42,644 bases of DNA from Candidatus Binatia bacterium (GTDB taxonomy: Bacteria; Desulfobacterota; Binatia; UBA12015), in contig JAQWJE010000022.1 of NCBI GenBank assembly GCA_029248525.1, positions 1-42,644 on the forward strand, given 5' to 3'. The position numbers and the translations under genes are program-made. Below, piece after piece: positions 1-6,969 of this stretch. A model generated the notes under the pieces. That model was not told the origin of the DNA. It did not search any database and worked only from the letters and a program-made list of their open reading frames with translations. Position 1 is the stretch's first letter, and every line of letters starts with the position of its first letter.

Positions 1-1401
1 ATCGCGCAGACGCTGCACGAGATCACCCACCCAGCCCATCTGTCGCTCGGCTCCGAGCGGCATATTGTAAAAAACGCCCGGCGAACCGGGTCCATGAATC
101 ATGAAGAGGTTCGGGAAGCCACTGATCGTCAGGCCCAGGTAGTTGTGGAAGCGATCTGTCCAGCGATCCTTGAGACTCACGCCGCCACGCCCTTTGGGGT
201 TCAGCCGCAGCATCGATCCGCTGATCGCATCGTAACCGGTTGCCAGAACCAGCATATCGATCGGATGCTCTCCGGATCGGGTGACCACACTGGACTCGGT
301 AAAGCGTTCGATGGGATCCTCTCGCAAATCCACCAACTCGACATTGTCCCGGTTATAGGCCTCGAAATACCCGTTTTCGAGCACCGGGCGCTTGGTCATC
401 ACAAAATGATCCGGCATCAACTTGTCGGCGACCTCCGGATCACGAACGGTCTCGCGAATCTTGGCGCGCACGAAGTCGGCCAGCGATTTGTTCGCCTCCT
501 CGTCGAGCGCGATATCGTTGTAGCTCTCGAGGAAGAAGCCGAAACCGCCACGCTCCCATAGACGCCCGTACATTTCTTCGCGTTCCTCGGGTGTTGCCTC
601 GACGGCCAACCGCGAATGATTATCGATCGGAAAGCCTCCGGGGTTCGCCAGCATCTTCCCCTTGATGGCATCCCATTCCGTTCGCGCCGCTTCCCTGTCT
701 TCGTCGGTCAGGGCGCGGTTCCCGGCAGGAAAAGCGAATTGCGGTGTTCGCTGGAGGACCGTCACATGAGCGGCCTCCTTGGCGATCTCGGGCATGGCCT
801 GAATCCCCGAGGAGCCCGTACCGATGACCGCGACGCGCTTGCCTTCAAAAGACACCGGCTCATGCGGCCATTGCCCTGTGTGATAGCACTCGCCAGAAAA
901 CTCCTTGATGCCGGGGATGTCCGGGAGGTTGGCCGTCGAGAGAGCACCCACCGCGCAGATCAGGAATTGAGCGGATGCGGTAACGCCCGTGCTGGTCGTC
1001 ACCGTCCATCGTTGGGTCGACTCATCGTAGCGGGCACCCTGCACCCACGTCTCGAACTGGATGTCGCGACGCAGATGGAAGCGATCGGCGACGTGTTCGA
1101 TATAATCCAGAACATCAGATTGCTCGGACTGGGTCTCTTTCCATTCCCAATCCTTCATCAAATCGTCCGAGAAGGTGTAGCAATAAAATGGACTCCCCGG
1201 ACCATCAACGCGGGCCCCCGGATACCGATTATACCACCAGGTCCCACCCACGTCGGTGGCGCCATCATAGACGCGCACGGAGAGGCCCATCTCGCGCAGG
1301 TGATGCAGGGCATACATCCCACTGACACCGGCACCGATAATCACGGCGTCGTAGGTTTCAATCGATCCATTTTCAGGCGTAGTTTGCTTTTCGTTGCTCA
1401 T
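1..1401 (-). CDS. Baeyer-Villiger-type flavin monooxygenase, C-terminus cut by window edge
   Basis: Flavoprotein monooxygenase expected to use FAD and NADPH to insert oxygen next to a ketone carbonyl (or a related oxygenation) in the cytoplasm. The reverse-strand frame is open for 467 codons from ATG at 1401 to the window edge. Family members have roughly 540-600 residues, so perhaps 80-130 are missing. Visible features are the FAD-binding GAGVSG near residue 22, the GGTWYNRYPGARVD segment near residue 52, the BVMO fingerprint F-S-G-E-C-Y-H-T-G-Q-W-P near residue 165, and a second Rossmann motif GTGSSG near residue 190. It lies about 100 bp downstream of the macro-domain gene on the same strand. 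The substrate cannot be told; other oxidative lipid-type genes nearby suggest hydrophobic substrates (inference). Confidence 0.9.
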   Translation of the reverse strand, partial: MSNEKQTTPENGSIETYDAVIIGAGVSGMYALHHLREMGLSVRVYDGATDVGGTWWYNRYPGARVDGPGSPFYCYTFSDDLMKDWEWKETQSEQSDVLDYIEHVADRFHLRRDIQFETWVQGARYDESTQRWTVTTSTGVTASAQFLICAVGALSTANLPDIPGIKEFSGECYHTGQWPHEPVSFEGKRVAVIGTGSSGIQAMPEIAKEAAHVTVLQRTPQFAFPAGNRALTDEDREAARTEWDAIKGKMLANPGGFPIDNHSRLAVEATPEEREEMYGRLWERGGFGFFLESYNDIALDEEANKSLADFVRAKIRETVRDPEVADKLMPDHFVMTKRPVLENGYFEAYNRDNVELVDLREDPIERFTESSVVTRSGEHPIDMLVLATGYDAISGSMLRLNPKGRGGVSLKDRWTDRFHNYLGLTISGFPNLFMIHGPGSPGVFYNMPLGAERQMGWVGDLVQRLRD

Positions 1402-1503
1402 TCCATATCTCCTGCCGACCGCGTCGCGGTCCTGCCTCCAGTGTGTCGCTCTCGGCAGAAAAATGCCAGTCCCGAGTGCAATCCATACCACCGGACATTC
1501 GGC

Positions 1504-2193
1504 TCAGGCCTCGCTGTCGGAAAATCCCCGAGGTAGATGGTCTCCCGTCTCATACTGCAGGTCACGGGGTGATTGACCATAAAGAGCTTGATGAGCAACG
1601 GCAGCTTCCCACCAGCTACCGGGGAAACACGCGCCCTCGAAGAATTCCTGGAGCGCAGCATGAGCCTGCAGGGCGAATCGATCGGCGTCGACAAGACCGA
1701 CGCCCGTGCCCAGCCCAGGGAGGACCACGCGCTTGACCCGCGGATCAGCCGCCGCCGCACGTAACGCCGCACGCAACGCCAGATAGGGATTGATTGTGTC
1801 CTCAGGCAAAACAGCAGGCACCCGCATCGTCGGGGCGACAATCAAAAAGGGGAAGCTGTCGGGATGTTCGGTGTCGACAATCGTCGCCTGCCCGACCAGA
1901 AGTTCACCGTGGTAGTCTGCCGCCAGAACATCGCGGACGCGATCCTCGAGATCCTCACCGAGCAACTCGAGATAGAGCGCATCAATTCCCCCATCCATGA
2001 ACCCAAAAGAATTCGCCGGCGAGACCAGCGCCGTGCCCTCGCCCGGAAAGTCGAATACGCTTGCATGAAAGGCCGAGACCCGACCCAGCGCCATCCAATC
2101 CTCGGAGGACATCAGGATACGTTCCTCCAGAGCCCTGTAGATCTCGATGCTCGTATCGGCCAGGACAATCTCGAAATTTTCCGCACTGCTCAT
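1504..2193 (-). CDS. Macro-domain protein (ADP-ribose binding or hydrolysis)
   Basis: Macro domains bind ADP-ribose and some remove it from proteins, nucleic acids or O-acetyl-ADP-ribose. The 229-residue protein is essentially one domain. The loop NSFGFMDGGID at about residues 61-71 and the phosphate-binding loop LPGLGTGVG at about 158-166 are the two hallmark ADP-ribose contacts. A GTG lies 9 bases upstream, but ATG at 2193 sits 8 bases after a strong AGGAGG and is preferred. The gene follows the ADP-ribosylglycohydrolase by about 90 bp on the same strand, so the two are probably cotranscribed and act on the same kind of modification. No ADP-ribosyltransferase is visible in the window. The fold call is firm; the exact substrate is unknown. 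Confidence 0.88.
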   Translation of the reverse strand: MSSAENFEIVLADTSIEIYRALEERILMSSEDWMALGRVSAFHASVFDFPGEGTALVSPANSFGFMDGGIDALYLELLGEDLEDRVRDVLAADYHGELLVGQATIVDTEHPDSFPFLIVAPTMRVPAVLPEDTINPYLALRAALRAAAADPRVKRVVLPGLGTGVGLVDADRFALQAHAALQEFFEGACFPGSWWEAAVAHQALYGQSPRDLQYETGDHLPRGFSDSEA

Positions 2194-2281
2194 CACGCAC
2201 ACCTCCTGTCAGGCAATTCCCCTGCCCGGGTCCGGGGATTCTCGAAAGAATCTCCCTGTTGTCGGCTTCGATTTCGCCCGG

Positions 2282-3307
2282 CTAGCGAAGCGCTTTCGCT
2301 CGTATCGTCTGCCCTTGGTGCCGTGCGGTCGCCGCTGTCCAAAGCTGCTGCGCAAGGAGTTCGATCTCCTCGCGCATGAAAACGCGCTCCTTCCACGACG
2401 CAGGGATCGAGGATGCCCCGTAGAAAGCACCCGCCAACTGGCCACAAATTGCGGCCGTTGTATCCGCGTCTTCACCCAGATTCGCAGCGCAGAGAACCGC
2501 TTCGCGATAACTTGCGGTGTTTGCAAAACACCAGATGGCCGCCTCGAGAGAGGACACGACATAACCTGACCCGCGGATCTCATCCATGCGCTTGTCTCGC
2601 CAACTCCCCTGCAAAACCTCGAGCACTGCGGGCGAAAGCGGGCGAGCATCCGGCCCCTGGGGTGGTGTTGTGGCAAGGATCGTTTCTCGATCGCAGCCTC
2701 GCAACGCCGCCACCAGAAACGTCGCATAGGCCCGGCACGCGTCAATGGGTTCGTCGGCTCCGTGTGTCACACGCGAGCTCTCCCCGGCAAAGTTTACAGC
2801 GGTCCGTTCGTCGCAAGCCCAGAAGAGGGCCACGGGGGCAAGACGCATGAGTGACCCGTTTCCTGCAGACCAGGCACCGTCCGGACCACTGAAGGCATCC
2901 CCCGTTTGCCGGAACCGATCGAGAGCTGTTGCCGTGGTATTTCCAATGTCGAAGCAATAATCCCGAGGTCCGGGCTGCCCGGTTTCACGCCAGGCGAGAT
3001 AGCGCTCGGCCTGATCCTGCGGATCGAACCCGGCGCACGATATCAGGCTCCTCGCCAGACAGATCGTCAGCGAGGTATCATCCGTCCACTCCCCGGGCCG
3101 CAGCCCGAAGGGACCACCGCCCACCAGATTATCGATGGGCTCAAAGCTGCCACGCGGCTGGAACTCGAGAGTCGTGCCCAGGGCATCACCCGTTGCCAGT
3201 CCAAGCAGGCAGCCTTTCGCTCGATCCAGCGAACGAATCGACGGTTCCCGGACCGGGTTTGGTATCGCGTCGCGCAACATCTGCCCACCTCTCTGAATTG
3301 ACTGCAC
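2282..3307 (-). CDS. ADP-ribosylglycohydrolase family protein (DraG/ARH-like)
   Basis: Hydrolase expected to cleave ADP-ribose from a modified protein or small molecule using a two-metal (usually Mg or Mn) centre. The 341-residue protein begins its domain at GLATGDALG (about residues 36-44). The metal-binding GEWTDDTSL is at 72-80, and the second metal-binding cluster LGEDADTTAAICGQLAGAFYG occupies about 277-297 with its Asp/Thr residues intact, so it should be active. The chosen start is GTG at 3307 after GAGGA. An ATG at 3280 after AGAGG is an equally good alternative and loses nothing conserved. It sits between the small ribbon-helix-helix gene (36 bp upstream) and the macro-domain gene, in a probable three-gene operon for ADP-ribose removal. 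Confidence 0.92.
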   Translation of the reverse strand: MQSIQRGGQMLRDAIPNPVREPSIRSLDRAKGCLLGLATGDALGTTLEFQPRGSFEPIDNLVGGGPFGLRPGEWTDDTSLTICLARSLISCAGFDPQDQAERYLAWRETGQPGPRDYCFDIGNTTATALDRFRQTGDAFSGPDGAWSAGNGSLMRLAPVALFWACDERTAVNFAGESSRVTHGADEPIDACRAYATFLVAALRGCDRETILATTPPQGPDARPLSPAVLEVLQGSWRDKRMDEIRGSGYVVSSLEAAIWCFANTASYREAVLCAANLGEDADTTAAICGQLAGAFYGASSIPASWKERVFMREEIELLAQQLWTAATARHQGQTIRAKALR

Positions 3308-3343
3308 TATGTCCTCAATTGAAGTCGCGCTGGTCGAGAGAGA

Positions 3344-3577
3344 CTAAGCCCTTCCCTTTTTATTACCAACCGACTCAAGCCCGATCTTGACCAGCAAGCG
3401 AAGCATCATCGCGAGGCTGCGCTCCTGCTCATCGGCTAACTCCGCGACCTCGTCGTACATCTGCTCATCCATCCTGATCTGCTGCCGGAAGGTCATGGGC
3501 GTTTTCCCGATCGGCTTCCTTCCCTTGCGCACGGCTATTGTTGCCCTTGCATCACTCACCTTTTCTGCTGCTTGCAT
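3344..3577 (-). CDS. Small ribbon-helix-helix-like DNA-binding protein
   Basis: Encodes 77 residues with a basic N-terminal half (RKGRKPIGKT) and a C-terminal stretch, QQIRMDEQMYDEVAELADEQ and on, that reads as one beta strand plus two helices, as in CopG/Arc-type repressors. ATG at 3577 is chosen because GGAGGGAG lies just upstream; an ATG at 3592 overlaps that Shine-Dalgarno sequence and is less likely. It is the first gene after a near-consensus promoter and precedes the ADP-ribosylglycohydrolase by 36 bp. A role as autorepressor of the operon, or as antitoxin-like partner, is inference. Sequence similarity to named families is weak by eye. Confidence 0.62.
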   Translation of the reverse strand: MQAAEKVSDARATIAVRKGRKPIGKTPMTFRQQIRMDEQMYDEVAELADEQERSLAMMLRLLVKIGLESVGNKKGRA

Positions 3578-3608
3578 AAAAACTCCCTCCAAACCAGGTT
3601 AATGTCTT

Positions 3609-3640
3609 TTGACTATATCCGGTATTGCTCTTATTGTCAA
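3609..3640 (-). promoter_or_regulatory. Sigma-70-like promoter with overlapping imperfect inverted repeat
   Basis: On the minus strand, TTGACA (3640-3635) is followed after exactly 17 bases by TATAGT (3617-3612), a near-perfect housekeeping promoter that would start transcription just upstream of the ribbon-helix-helix gene. The same bases form 9-bp arms TTGACTATA (3609-3617) and TATTGTCAA (3632-3640), matching at 8 of 9 positions and separated by 14 bp. An operator here would cover both promoter boxes. The ribbon-helix-helix protein and the divergent NrtR-like regulator are both candidate binders. The stretch is markedly AT-richer than its surroundings. Confidence 0.65.
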
Positions 3641-3659
3641 GTTACTTTAAGTAGGAAGG

Positions 3660-4541
3660 GTGGAAGATACATCGGCAACCTCGGATCACGGCCTCAACTT
3701 TCCCAGCTTTGCGGTGACGGTCGATCTCGCGATCTTCACCGTCGCGCCTCGCGAGGAGGATGACGAAAGAGAACTTCAGGTGCTGCTGATTAGACGGGGG
3801 CCGGACCAGACGCCGCATAGCGGCGAATGGGCCTTGCCGGGCGGCTTCGTCGGACTCGAAGAAACTCTCGAAGAAGCCGCAGCTCGGCGCTTGAAGGAAA
3901 AGACCGGGATTATAATTTCGCAAAAGGACCTCAGGCAACTCCGGACCTTCGGCGACCCGGAGCGTGACAAGCGAGCGACAGCCGACCGGGTCGTCACGGT
4001 TGCCTACGCAAAACTGCAAGCTGGCTGTACAACCCCGAAACCCGCGGGTGGCGTTGCGGACGCTGCCTTCTTTCCCGTCGCCAGCATCAGCGATGTCGTC
4101 GACAAGCAGACTGCGAAAACAGTCCTCTCGGCCTTCGACCATTGGACCATTTTCCAGGCGGCGCTTGCACGCATTCGCAAGGATTTGGAAGAAACACCAA
4201 TCGCAGTCGAATTCCTCAACCCGCAATTCACGATCTCCGAACTCCATGCCGTCTATCGGGCCGTCTGGGGAGAGGCCGTCCACCAGCTCGACCCCGCGAA
4301 CTTCCGACGGCGCGTGTTGGCCATACAGAAGGGCAGCAGCGAAGACTCGGAGACCAGTTTCCTGAAGGCCATCTTTCAGGAGAAGAAAGGGCCGAAAGGC
4401 GAAGCTCTACCTGCCACCAAACGGGGCAAGGGGCGGTCCGCTGCGCTCTATGAATTCGGCGGCATCGACAAGCTCGAACCGCCCTACCGAATGCCGATTC
4501 GTATGCCGCAAAAATCCCACTCGCAGAATGGAAAGGACTGA
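3660..4541 (+). CDS. NrtR-like Nudix-domain / winged-helix transcriptional regulator
   Basis: NrtR-type proteins join a Nudix domain that senses ADP-ribose or related NAD metabolites to a C-terminal winged helix that binds DNA. This 293-residue protein matches that layout: AVTVDLAIFTV starts the Nudix domain at about residue 18, and the WALPGGFVGLEET segment leads into the Nudix box at 61-84. In that box the usual R-E-x2-E-E core reads R-R-L-K-E-K, so two acidic catalytic positions are changed and hydrolysis may be lost, as in sensor-only relatives. Residues of about 170-290 fit the DNA-binding half. The start is GTG at 3660, directly after AGGAAGG, an unusually short spacing; an in-frame TAA lies 12 bases upstream. 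It diverges from the ADP-ribose hydrolase operon, its likely target (inference). Confidence 0.85.
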   Translation: MEDTSATSDHGLNFPSFAVTVDLAIFTVAPREEDDERELQVLLIRRGPDQTPHSGEWALPGGFVGLEETLEEAAARRLKEKTGIIISQKDLRQLRTFGDPERDKRATADRVVTVAYAKLQAGCTTPKPAGGVADAAFFPVASISDVVDKQTAKTVLSAFDHWTIFQAALARIRKDLEETPIAVEFLNPQFTISELHAVYRAVWGEAVHQLDPANFRRRVLAIQKGSSEDSETSFLKAIFQEKKGPKGEALPATKRGKGRSAALYEFGGIDKLEPPYRMPIRMPQKSHSQNGKD

Positions 4542-4618
4542 AGCCTCCCCACCCCCTCCCGGCTCAGCTCCTGGCAGGCTGCGGCAGGGCCTCACTACAG
4601 TGCCTCCATCGGTCGAGG

Positions 4619-5752
4619 TCAGCCAGATGCGGGTGCTCCGAGGATCATCGCAGCAATCTGCTGGCGATGATGCGCCGGGGTTCCGAAAGCCACCCGCGAC
4701 GCCATGGCGCGCCGACGGAACAGGTGGGCGTCGCATTCGTCGGTAAAGCCGAACCCCCCGTGAAATTGAATCGCGCGAGAGGTGGCAAAACCATAGGCCT
4801 CGTCGGCGGCGACCCGTGCCATCCGCGCCAGCAACGGCGCGTCTCCATTTTTCTGGTCCAGCGCGCAAGCAGCCGCATAGACCAGCGAGCGCGCCTGCTC
4901 CACCGCGATCAAAACGTTGGCCAGTGGATGTTTGATCGCCTGAAAAGCCCCGATCGGCTTGCCAAATTGCTCGCGCTCGGCCGCATAGCGAGCCGTCATA
5001 TCCAATGCCGCGGACGCGCCTCCGACCGATTCGGCAGCCATCGCTGCCCACGCCAGAGGTAGAAAATCCTCTTCAACCGACCCGGCGTCCGCCTCGAGGA
5101 TCGCCTCAGGCACCACGCCGTCAAGCTGCAACCGGCCCTGCGCACGCGTCGGGTCCAACGTTGTCTCGCTTTCTCGCGACAAACCTTCGGCGGTCGCCGA
5201 AACCACCGCCAGCACAACGCCGCCGTTGCGCCTGCACGGCAACAGAAAGGCATCGGCGGTATCGCCCGCCCAGACGAATGCCCGATCGCCGGAAAGCCGG
5301 CCGCCGCGATCTTCCAATCCGGTGTCCGCCATATGCCAGGCGCCGCCTGCATCCGTGGGCGCCCAGGCCATCCGCACCTCACCGCTGACCAGCCGCGGCA
5401 GCCAGAACGCTTTTTGTGCTGCGGACCCGGCCGCGCCGATCAAGGCAGCAGAAAACAACTGCCCCAATAGCGGGGCCGCGAGCAGAACCCGACCCGACTC
5501 CTCCACCAGAGAAACCAACTCGACAGCACCAAGCGCCGCCCCGCCGTAGACCGCGTCAGTCCCCAAGCCGAACCAGCCACCTTCGGCCAACTCCTTCCAG
5601 ATCGCCGGATCATCACGACCCCCATCGGCGATCCACCCGCGCAGGGCACCCAGAGGCGCTCGTGCCTCCAGAAGCCGTCGGGCTTCCTCGCGCAACATCG
5701 TTTGATCCTCGCTGAAGGCAAGGCGTGTCGAGATCGAATCGAGAGTCATCAT
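4619..5752 (-). CDS. Acyl-CoA dehydrogenase, second subunit of a coupled pair
   Basis: FAD-dependent acyl-CoA dehydrogenase-fold protein of 377 residues. The C-terminal signature IQFHGGFGFTDECDAH and the preceding REQFGKPIGAFQAIKH are typical. It lacks the GGTSEIxRN-type segment that its partner carries. ATG at 5752 overlaps the partner's TGA as ATGA (a second ATG is at 5749), so translation is probably coupled. In actinobacterial steroid side-chain degradation, unequal pairs like this form alpha2-beta2 enzymes in which one subunit supplies the catalytic base. The same arrangement here is inference from the layout and the motif split. The substrate is unknown; bulky or branched acyl-CoA is plausible. 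Confidence 0.88.
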   Translation of the reverse strand: MMTLDSISTRLAFSEDQTMLREEARRLLEARAPLGALRGWIADGGRDDPAIWKELAEGGWFGLGTDAVYGGAALGAVELVSLVEESGRVLLAAPLLGQLFSAALIGAAGSAAQKAFWLPRLVSGEVRMAWAPTDAGGAWHMADTGLEDRGGRLSGDRAFVWAGDTADAFLLPCRRNGGVVLAVVSATAEGLSRESETTLDPTRAQGRLQLDGVVPEAILEADAGSVEEDFLPLAWAAMAAESVGGASAALDMTARYAAEREQFGKPIGAFQAIKHPLANVLIAVEQARSLVYAAACALDQKNGDAPLLARMARVAADEAYGFATSRAIQFHGGFGFTDECDAHLFRRRAMASRVAFGTPAHHRQQIAAMILGAPASG

Positions 5753-6969
5753 TTCGTCTTCGGCAGTCCCAGGACTTTTTCGCCCAGAATGTTTCGGACA
5801 ATCTCGGAGGTTCCCCCCGCGATCGTGCCCGCATAGCTGTTGAGGTAGGCGCGCTGCCATTCGCCTTCGGCGACCGCAGCCGTATCTCCCTTGTTCAGAG
5901 TGCCGGCATAGCCCTGCAATTCGCACCCAAAATCCGCGACCGCCTGCGCATATTCTGTTCCCGCAACTTTCGACATCAGCGGCAGGGCCAACGGTCGGTC
6001 CGCCACCAAGCCCGGGATCCGAGCGCGCTGGCCCGAGAAACGAAGCGCCATTGCATCGATCGCAAACCCGACCAGCCGGTCGCGTACCTCGGGCTCATCA
6101 ATGCAGGTCCCACCATCCCGACGGGTCGTGCGCGCCAGATCAATGGCGGCTGTGACGTCAAATGTGGCGCCCATATCGCCACCGGCGGCACCTTCGGAAG
6201 CACCGCGTTCGAAGCTGAGGGTCGCCAGAGCAATCTCCCAGCCCTGCCCTTCCTGCCCGAGAAGACAATCTCCGGGGAAGCGCGCGTCGCCGAAAAAGAT
6301 CTGGTTGAAACCGCCCTCGCCCGTGATCTTGGTCAGCGGTGCGACCTCGACGCCTTCGGTTTTCATGGGCGAGAGGAAATACGAGATCCCGGCATGCTTG
6401 GAGGCTTCCGGGTCAGTTCGAGCGAGCAGGATCATCTGGTCGGCAAAGCGCCCCAAAGACGTCCAGACCTTGTGTCCATTAACGATCCATTGGTCACCGT
6501 CGCGCACTGCGCGAGTTTGCAGAGAGGCCAGATCACTGCCCGCCGACGGCTCGCTGAAACCCTGACACCAGATTTCGTCGGCGCGCAGAATTTTCGCGAT
6601 ATATCGTTTTTTCTGCGCCTCGGTACCGTAGGCCAGGATCACCGGTCCCGCCCATGCCAGACCGACCAGATTGATCAGAAAGGGAACCCCCGCGCGACTC
6701 ATCTCCTGGCTCACAATGCGCTGGTGGCCGGGCCCTCGCCCACCGCCGCCATAGGCAGCGGGCCACTCGACTCCAACGAAACCTGCGTCATAGACCCGGG
6801 CCTGCCAATCTCGCAGGTAAGCAAACTGCTCGTCGCTATCGACAAAAAGCATCCCCTGCGGCAGGGCGAAGGCAGGTGCGGGCGGCTGGTTATTCTCCAT
6901 CCAGGCGCGCACCTCCTGCCGATATTCGCTCAGGTCTGTCGGATCTTCCATTCTTGAACTGTCTGCCAT
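5749..6969 (-). CDS. Acyl-CoA dehydrogenase, first subunit of a coupled pair
   Basis: Protein of 406 residues, likely an FAD enzyme that introduces a double bond into an acyl-CoA and passes electrons to ETF. The N-terminal helical domain is followed by the substrate/FAD segment QGFSEPSAGSDLASLQT, then VNGHKVWTSLGRFADQM, and near the C-terminus TIAGGTSEIVRNILGE, the signature of the FadE group found in heteromeric pairs. ATG at 6969 is preferred (GAGAGG lies 9 bases upstream); an ATG at 6951 is possible. It overlaps the next dehydrogenase by ATGA. Together they look like one two-subunit enzyme. Confidence 0.92.
   Translation of the reverse strand: MADSSRMEDPTDLSEYRQEVRAWMENNQPPAPAFALPQGMLFVDSDEQFAYLRDWQARVYDAGFVGVEWPAAYGGGGRGPGHQRIVSQEMSRAGVPFLINLVGLAWAGPVILAYGTEAQKKRYIAKILRADEIWCQGFSEPSAGSDLASLQTRAVRDGDQWIVNGHKVWTSLGRFADQMILLARTDPEASKHAGISYFLSPMKTEGVEVAPLTKITGEGGFNQIFFGDARFPGDCLLGQEGQGWEIALATLSFERGASEGAAGGDMGATFDVTAAIDLARTTRRDGGTCIDEPEVRDRLVGFAIDAMALRFSGQRARIPGLVADRPLALPLMSKVAGTEYAQAVADFGCELQGYAGTLNKGDTAAVAEGEWQRAYLNSYAGTIAGGTSEIVRNILGEKVLGLPKTK

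Follow-up and report, generated by a model that had tools for sequence, protein, structure and literature searches.

A Candidatus Binatia locus that probably encodes ADP-ribose-inducible removal of ADP-ribose and resembles the predicted ARG-centred systems

ARG-centred systems have been predicted in bacteria as gene clusters that lack a coupled transferase (Iyer et al., 2022; PMC9503650, section 3.8). In the portion of that paper devoted to these systems, a Nudix- or WYL-helix-turn-helix one-component regulator is reported in more than 42% of clusters and a coupled phosphatase in a little over 55%, the latter not being obligatory, and Macro or NADAR proteins are sometimes included (PMC9503650). 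Induction by released ADP-ribose or nucleosides is proposed there, as is, on genomic grounds, a role in phage defence; protection against phage ADP-ribosylation is a prediction in that source too (PMC9503650). Here we describe a locus of similar content from Candidatus Binatia bacterium (GTDB lineage Bacteria; Desulfobacterota; Binatia; UBA12015; GenBank assembly GCA_029248525.1). It occupies positions 1504-4541 of contig JAQWJE010000022.1, of which positions 1 to 42,644 of the forward strand (42,644 nucleotides) form the window analysed. The locus carries genes for an ADP-ribosylglycohydrolase (ARH), a macro-domain protein, a small probable ribbon-helix-helix (RHH) protein and an NrtR-like regulator (Table 1). 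The ARH/ARG core, the Nudix-helix-turn-helix regulator and the optional Macro are shared with ARG-centred systems, and no coupled transferase was seen when DarT and KptA were searched for. Unlike those systems, the four genes include no classical phosphatase or chaperone, and an RHH gene leads the run. By content the locus fits the ARG-centred systems and is a fresh example of a cluster type already predicted in print, to which it adds the leading RHH gene and a macro protein without a classical phosphatase. RHH proteins are not mentioned in the main text of PMC9503650, and no report joining ribbon-helix-helix and ADP-ribosylglycohydrolase was found in the literature searched. For NrtR together with ADP-ribosylglycohydrolase the same search returned PMC9503650 alone, in a body of literature that lacked Rodionov et al. 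(2008) on NrtR regulons.

The cluster is rather likely to be an ADP-ribose-inducible operon for the removal of ADP-ribose. The NrtR-like protein, acting at a shared divergent promoter, would repress both itself and the RHH-ARH-macro run. By analogy with characterised NrtR proteins, ADP-ribose, as its level rises, would bind the Nudix domain, which is probably inactive, and cause the repressor to leave the DNA. The ARH, judging from its intact active-site motifs, would strip ADP-ribose from modified macromolecules, and the macro protein would process ADP-ribose derivatives; its likeness to a yeast ADP-ribose-1''-phosphatase suggests that it may replace the phosphatase of sister clusters. The RHH protein would probably serve as a second autoregulator. 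This reading is preferred because the ARH motifs are intact, the NrtR architecture is complete with a damaged Nudix box and the promoters interlock, because NrtR-like and ARH genes recur together in Acidovorax and Variovorax with phosphatase and WYL genes near other ARH relatives, and because the macro fold is nearest to an ADP-ribose-1''-monophosphatase and the published class, as set out in the relevant part of PMC9503650, matches. If correct, the locus would provide a minimal testable case of the predicted bacterial answer to ADP-ribosylation, with one sensor and two removal enzymes in about 3 kb.

Table 1. Features of the ADP-ribose locus, in window coordinates.
Feature	Position	Strand	Remarks
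Macro-domain gene	1504..2193	minus	ATG 2193 behind AGGAGG; listed open reading frame from GTG 2202
ADP-ribosylglycohydrolase gene (ARH/DraG/Tri1 superfamily)	2282..3280	minus	ATG 3280 behind GAGAGG; listed open reading frame from GTG 3307
Small probable ribbon-helix-helix gene, first of run	3344..3577	minus	ATG 3577 behind GGAGGG
Two interlocked divergent sigma-70-like promoters	3609..3640	both	11 of 12 (minus) and 9 of 12 (plus) consensus positions matched
NrtR-like regulator gene, degenerate Nudix + winged helix	3660..4541	plus	GTG 3660, ribosome site very close

The ARH matches Pfam ADP_ribosyl_GH over its full length (E 9e-80), and its closest solved structures are 6dre (3e-74) and 2cwc (2e-70). 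The first is listed as an ADP-ribosyl-(dinitrogen reductase) hydrolase, and we take it to be the structure of Tri1. The active-site motifs WTDDTS, TH and NLGxDAD are intact and are conserved in 31 aligned rows, the window included. The protein fails both curated equivalogs with which it was compared, namely Tri1 (NF041672, 315.5 against a cut-off of 490) and DraG (TIGR02662, 149.1 against 337). ARH matches occur in 64 of 395 genomes of the phylum, its own included. The similarity to Tri1 in both score and structure, together with a Sphingomonas ARH relative (44% identical, annotated tri1) that lies beside PAAR and DUF4123 genes, would suit a Tri1-like immunity protein directed against an injected ADP-ribosylating effector; however, with the score below the Tri1 cut-off and a sensor regulator ill-suited to constant immunity, we regard this as very unlikely. 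The genome carries a second, divergent ARH gene on a different contig (G000:C49:94223-95113). Pairs of near or adjacent ARH genes, one typical and one divergent, are also found at L186 (3967-6011), L180 (1195-3933) and L191 (4986-7005).

The regulator joins a Nudix domain to an NrtR-type winged helix in one protein, with Pfam matches above cut-off to NUDIX (2.4e-16), NrtR_WHD (1.1e-9) and AraR_C (2.9e-6) and structural matches to 2fml (2e-21), AraR (5bs6, 1e-15) and an NrtR-type protein (3gz5, 5e-14). Its Nudix box reads R-R-L-K-E-K-T-G, which bears out the claim of the initial annotation that two acidic catalytic positions have been lost. The same two positions are lost in the ARH-linked NrtR-like proteins of Variovorax and Acidovorax plasmids, and the box is damaged in six of nine aligned NrtR-like rows (window included). 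R-E-L-x-E-E is kept in the other three (L088, L196, L197), among which L088 is the best relative within the class. Impairment of the Nudix motif is stated for NrtR regulators of NAD metabolism in a passage of PMC4666351, and the loss is therefore not unusual. NrtR-like matches occur in 76 of 148 class genomes, the window's own among them.

The RHH, ARH and macro genes form one minus-strand run, with gaps of 63 bp (RHH-ARH) and 88 bp (ARH-macro), and the NrtR-like gene is divergent on the plus strand. We infer that the run is a single operon. A good ribosome site before each ATG indicates that the minus-strand genes likely start downstream of the listed positions. The RHH ATG at 3577 and the NrtR GTG at 3660 are separated by 82 bp, which hold a near-perfect minus-strand promoter (TTGACA-17-TATAGT, 3640 to 3612, 11 of 12 consensus positions) and a weaker plus-strand promoter (TTGACT-17-TATTGT, 3609 to 3637, 9 of 12). 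The -35 element of one overlaps the -10 element of the other, and a protein bound there would be expected to block both. Between 1300 and 4800 there are four sigma-70-like sites, against a mean of 0.7 in shuffled sequence. NrtR sites are described as varying by lineage in the relevant parts of PMC6800001 and PMC5343134. Beyond the NrtR-like gene comes a gene for an acyl-CoA dehydrogenase, the one flanking gene covered by the Pfam scan.

The macro protein matches Pfam Macro (1.5e-7) and Macro_2 (2.2e-6) above cut-off, the latter barely (27.6 against 27). Its structure model (pLDDT 87) is predicted to resemble most closely yeast YMX7 (1njr), an ADP-ribose-1''-monophosphatase (Z 18.0, root-mean-square deviation 3.2, 188 aligned residues). 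YMX7 is the closest solved structure to the model at 25% identity, the likeness being one of predicted fold, and its lead is modest because the second match, E. coli YmdB, scores 16.5 over 142 residues. The family is tightly conserved, with VSPANSFGFMDGG, APTMRVP, GLGTGVG and 28 invariant columns in a 52-row alignment. Relatives number 224 in genome contigs and 43 in viral contigs; plasmid matches come from 34 records and cover at most 36% of the macro length among the matches listed. Strong conservation of the family notwithstanding, a rough gene call over 80 of its loci places no neighbour family in more than four.

Of the four identifications, that of the RHH protein is the weakest. The small first gene probably encodes a ribbon-helix-helix DNA-binding protein, as suggested by a PHROG match to an Arc-like repressor (E 7e-4); its structure model, built from one sequence as a single chain, shows helices and no strand. 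The initial annotation had named a macro domain, an ADP-ribosylglycohydrolase, an RHH protein and an NrtR-like sensor: the genes lie where it placed them, and the macro, ARH and NrtR-like assignments were confirmed by Pfam above cut-off. The RHH gene is likewise present, although its family label was reached only below threshold.

The contexts of ARH relatives on plasmids bear on the purpose of the cluster. Thirteen of the 14 best plasmid matches were examined, with the four unannotated loci L199, L202, L203 and L206 judged by profile searches. An NrtR gene is present in three of the 13, adjacent to the ARH in L189 and approximately 5 kb upstream of it in L199 and L202; none of the 13 loci yielded a macro or RHH match. 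In the Acidovorax sp. DW039 plasmid (L189), as in the window, an NrtR-like gene and an ARH gene are neighbours and face another ADP-ribose-related gene; there, however, the two share a strand, and KptA and an annotated HAD gene replace macro and RHH. Variovorax paradoxus NZ_CP138514.1 (L199, 7453-14036) carries a row of NrtR-like, isochorismatase-like (below cut-off), PncB, NadE, NadM-Nudix and ARH genes, with the ARH last. This ARH is the nearest plasmid relative of that in the window (58% identical), and the NrtR-like protein has the same damaged Nudix box; the Variovorax run differs in carrying PncB, NadE and NadM-Nudix, and neither a macro nor an RHH gene was detected there. A second Variovorax record (L202) has the same NrtR-ARH spacing, a likeness judged by spacing alone.

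The Variovorax run suggests that the cluster could instead be an NrtR-regulon branch through which ADP-ribose and derivatives of it are returned to nicotinamide adenine dinucleotide (NAD) metabolism, without any part in defence. Characterised NrtR proteins control NAD genes, according to the relevant parts of PMC6800001 and PMC4666351, and the closest plasmid ARH ends an NrtR-led NAD-salvage run. On the other hand, the four genes include no NAD-biosynthesis gene, the neighbour on the NrtR side is of a different kind, and viral macro relatives with KptA (7 of 43 loci) and NADAR (13 of 43) point to RNA repair and not to NAD salvage. We consider this housekeeping role a serious contender that falls somewhat short of even chances; since it shares its mechanism with the preferred reading and differs in purpose, the chances of the two overlap.

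Other ARH relatives point towards the published proposal. WYL regulators are found near ARH relatives in Rhodothermus and in Azospirillum, the latter with a broken-up ARH (E 5e-7). A metallophosphoesterase gene adjoins the ARH in Vibrio casei, and a gene of the cyclin-dependent kinase inhibitor 3 family, presumably a family of dual-specificity phosphatases, adjoins it in Roseomonas. With the Roseomonas phosphatase as seed, 9 of 20 phylum ARH loci were matched, in the ARH open reading frame or within approximately 1.2 kb of it (E 5e-8 to 0.0016, some weak). Pfam assigned a DSP-type phosphatase to 5 and WYL to 3 of 132 ARH-neighbour open reading frames among the matches listed, many of these frames not being real genes. 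NAD-salvage genes accompany the nearest plasmid ARH, and the ARHs linked to phosphatase or WYL genes agree with the defence role proposed in print. The Variovorax context of a close ARH relative therefore bears on whether ARG-centred clusters serve defence, NAD recycling or both. In Vibrio casei NZ_AP018682.1 (L204, 4854-8624) the annotated Csm6, ARH and metallophosphoesterase genes form a tight tandem array that transposase genes flank on either side.

Neighbourhoods were also sampled from the remaining genes, with several contigs short and some flanks missing. In the flanks fetched for the top 80 of the 224 macro relatives, neither ARH nor RHH was found; two gave NrtR-profile matches, one at a distance of approximately 5 kb (L018, E 7e-24) and one that may be an ordinary Nudix protein (L035, E 6e-5). 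No macro, RHH or NrtR gene was found near 20 phylum ARH loci or near three viral ARH relatives, and no macro or RHH gene near 20 class loci of the NrtR-like gene. A genome labelled as the same species (63% complete) shares a single 43-base match with positions 1-6000 of the window, too little to be informative. The macro is matched in one of 148 class genomes (E up to 1e-15), the window's own, and this patchy distribution, together with that of the RHH gene (one of 395 phylum genomes, likewise the window's own), suggests lateral gain of both, which fits with defence and does not show it. The same rarity, and the lack of ARH near macro relatives, would be expected if the four genes had been acquired separately, kept roles of their own and become adjacent by accident. 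Against such chance adjacency stand the closely spaced same-strand genes, the shared divergent promoter region, the single biochemical theme and the recurrence of NrtR with ARH, and we consider it unlikely.

Several results weigh against an ADP-ribose-inducible removal operon. The exact four-gene order was seen in no relative examined, whether approached from macro, ARH or NrtR loci or on plasmids; the initial annotation had held that a neighbourhood not conserved in relatives would speak against it, and for this exact order that is what was found. No ARH gene lies near any of the 20 class NrtR-like relatives. In the ARH tree, built after three fragmentary rows (L172, L205, L206) were dropped, the placement of the window ARH has no support and joins it neither to the NrtR-linked nor to the phosphatase- or WYL-linked ARHs. 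The RHH protein matches RHH_5 (E 2e-4, 21.5 against 26) and RHH_1 (E 5e-3, 17.1 against 20.5) below cut-off, and among the 395 phylum genomes it is an orphan; no plasmid match was found for it. According to Pfam, none of the four encodes a classical phosphatase or a chaperone. The regulator scores 91 against a cut-off of 400 for the curated NrtR family NF050029; its counterpart in the Variovorax NAD run likewise stays below that cut-off (223.7). The regulator from the window also matches AraR_C, and AraR, of the same family, responds to arabinose as described in part of PMC4666351; its ligand is therefore not certain. The only strong dyad in the intergenic region consists of the two promoters themselves; 172 of 1000 first-order Markov simulations were as good, and the dyad is therefore not evidence of an operator. 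The operator pattern has one other match in the genome, with two mismatches and near a contig end, equal to the control count.

The initial annotation had also suggested an ADP-ribose-responsive repair or phage-defence module. An ADP-ribose-responsive cluster remains the best reading, and defence is proposed in the section of PMC9503650 on these systems; the Variovorax NAD-salvage context points equally to NAD or ADP-ribose recycling. PADLOC gave no defence match for the macro, ARH or RHH proteins and a weak one for the NrtR-like protein (PDC-S07, E 7e-6). Neither DarT nor KptA was found in the assembly (98.9% complete), sirtuins and other transferase families lying outside that search. A more elaborate version, which we consider quite unlikely, is an ADP-ribose alarm with two inputs: sensor (NrtR-like) and autoregulator (RHH) would jointly control the ARH and a phosphatase-displacing macro protein. 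Compact and inducible, the resulting system would strip invader-added ADP-ribose from host macromolecules and clear the phosphorylated ADP-ribose released.

In addition to NADAR and KptA, the 43 viral macro loci include a divergent ARH in four, three of which look like one phage, and an NrtR-profile match in one (L247, E 8e-7). Macro and ARH genes do therefore occur together outside this locus, apparently in the setting of phage RNA repair. At L229 (3408-8863), ARH, NADAR, macro, KptA and Thg1 lie close together, all confirmed by Pfam. At L234 (2512-8730), ARH, NADAR and KptA are similarly confirmed, Thg1 being confirmed in L229 only, and both loci apparently represent a phage RNA-repair and ADP-ribose cluster.

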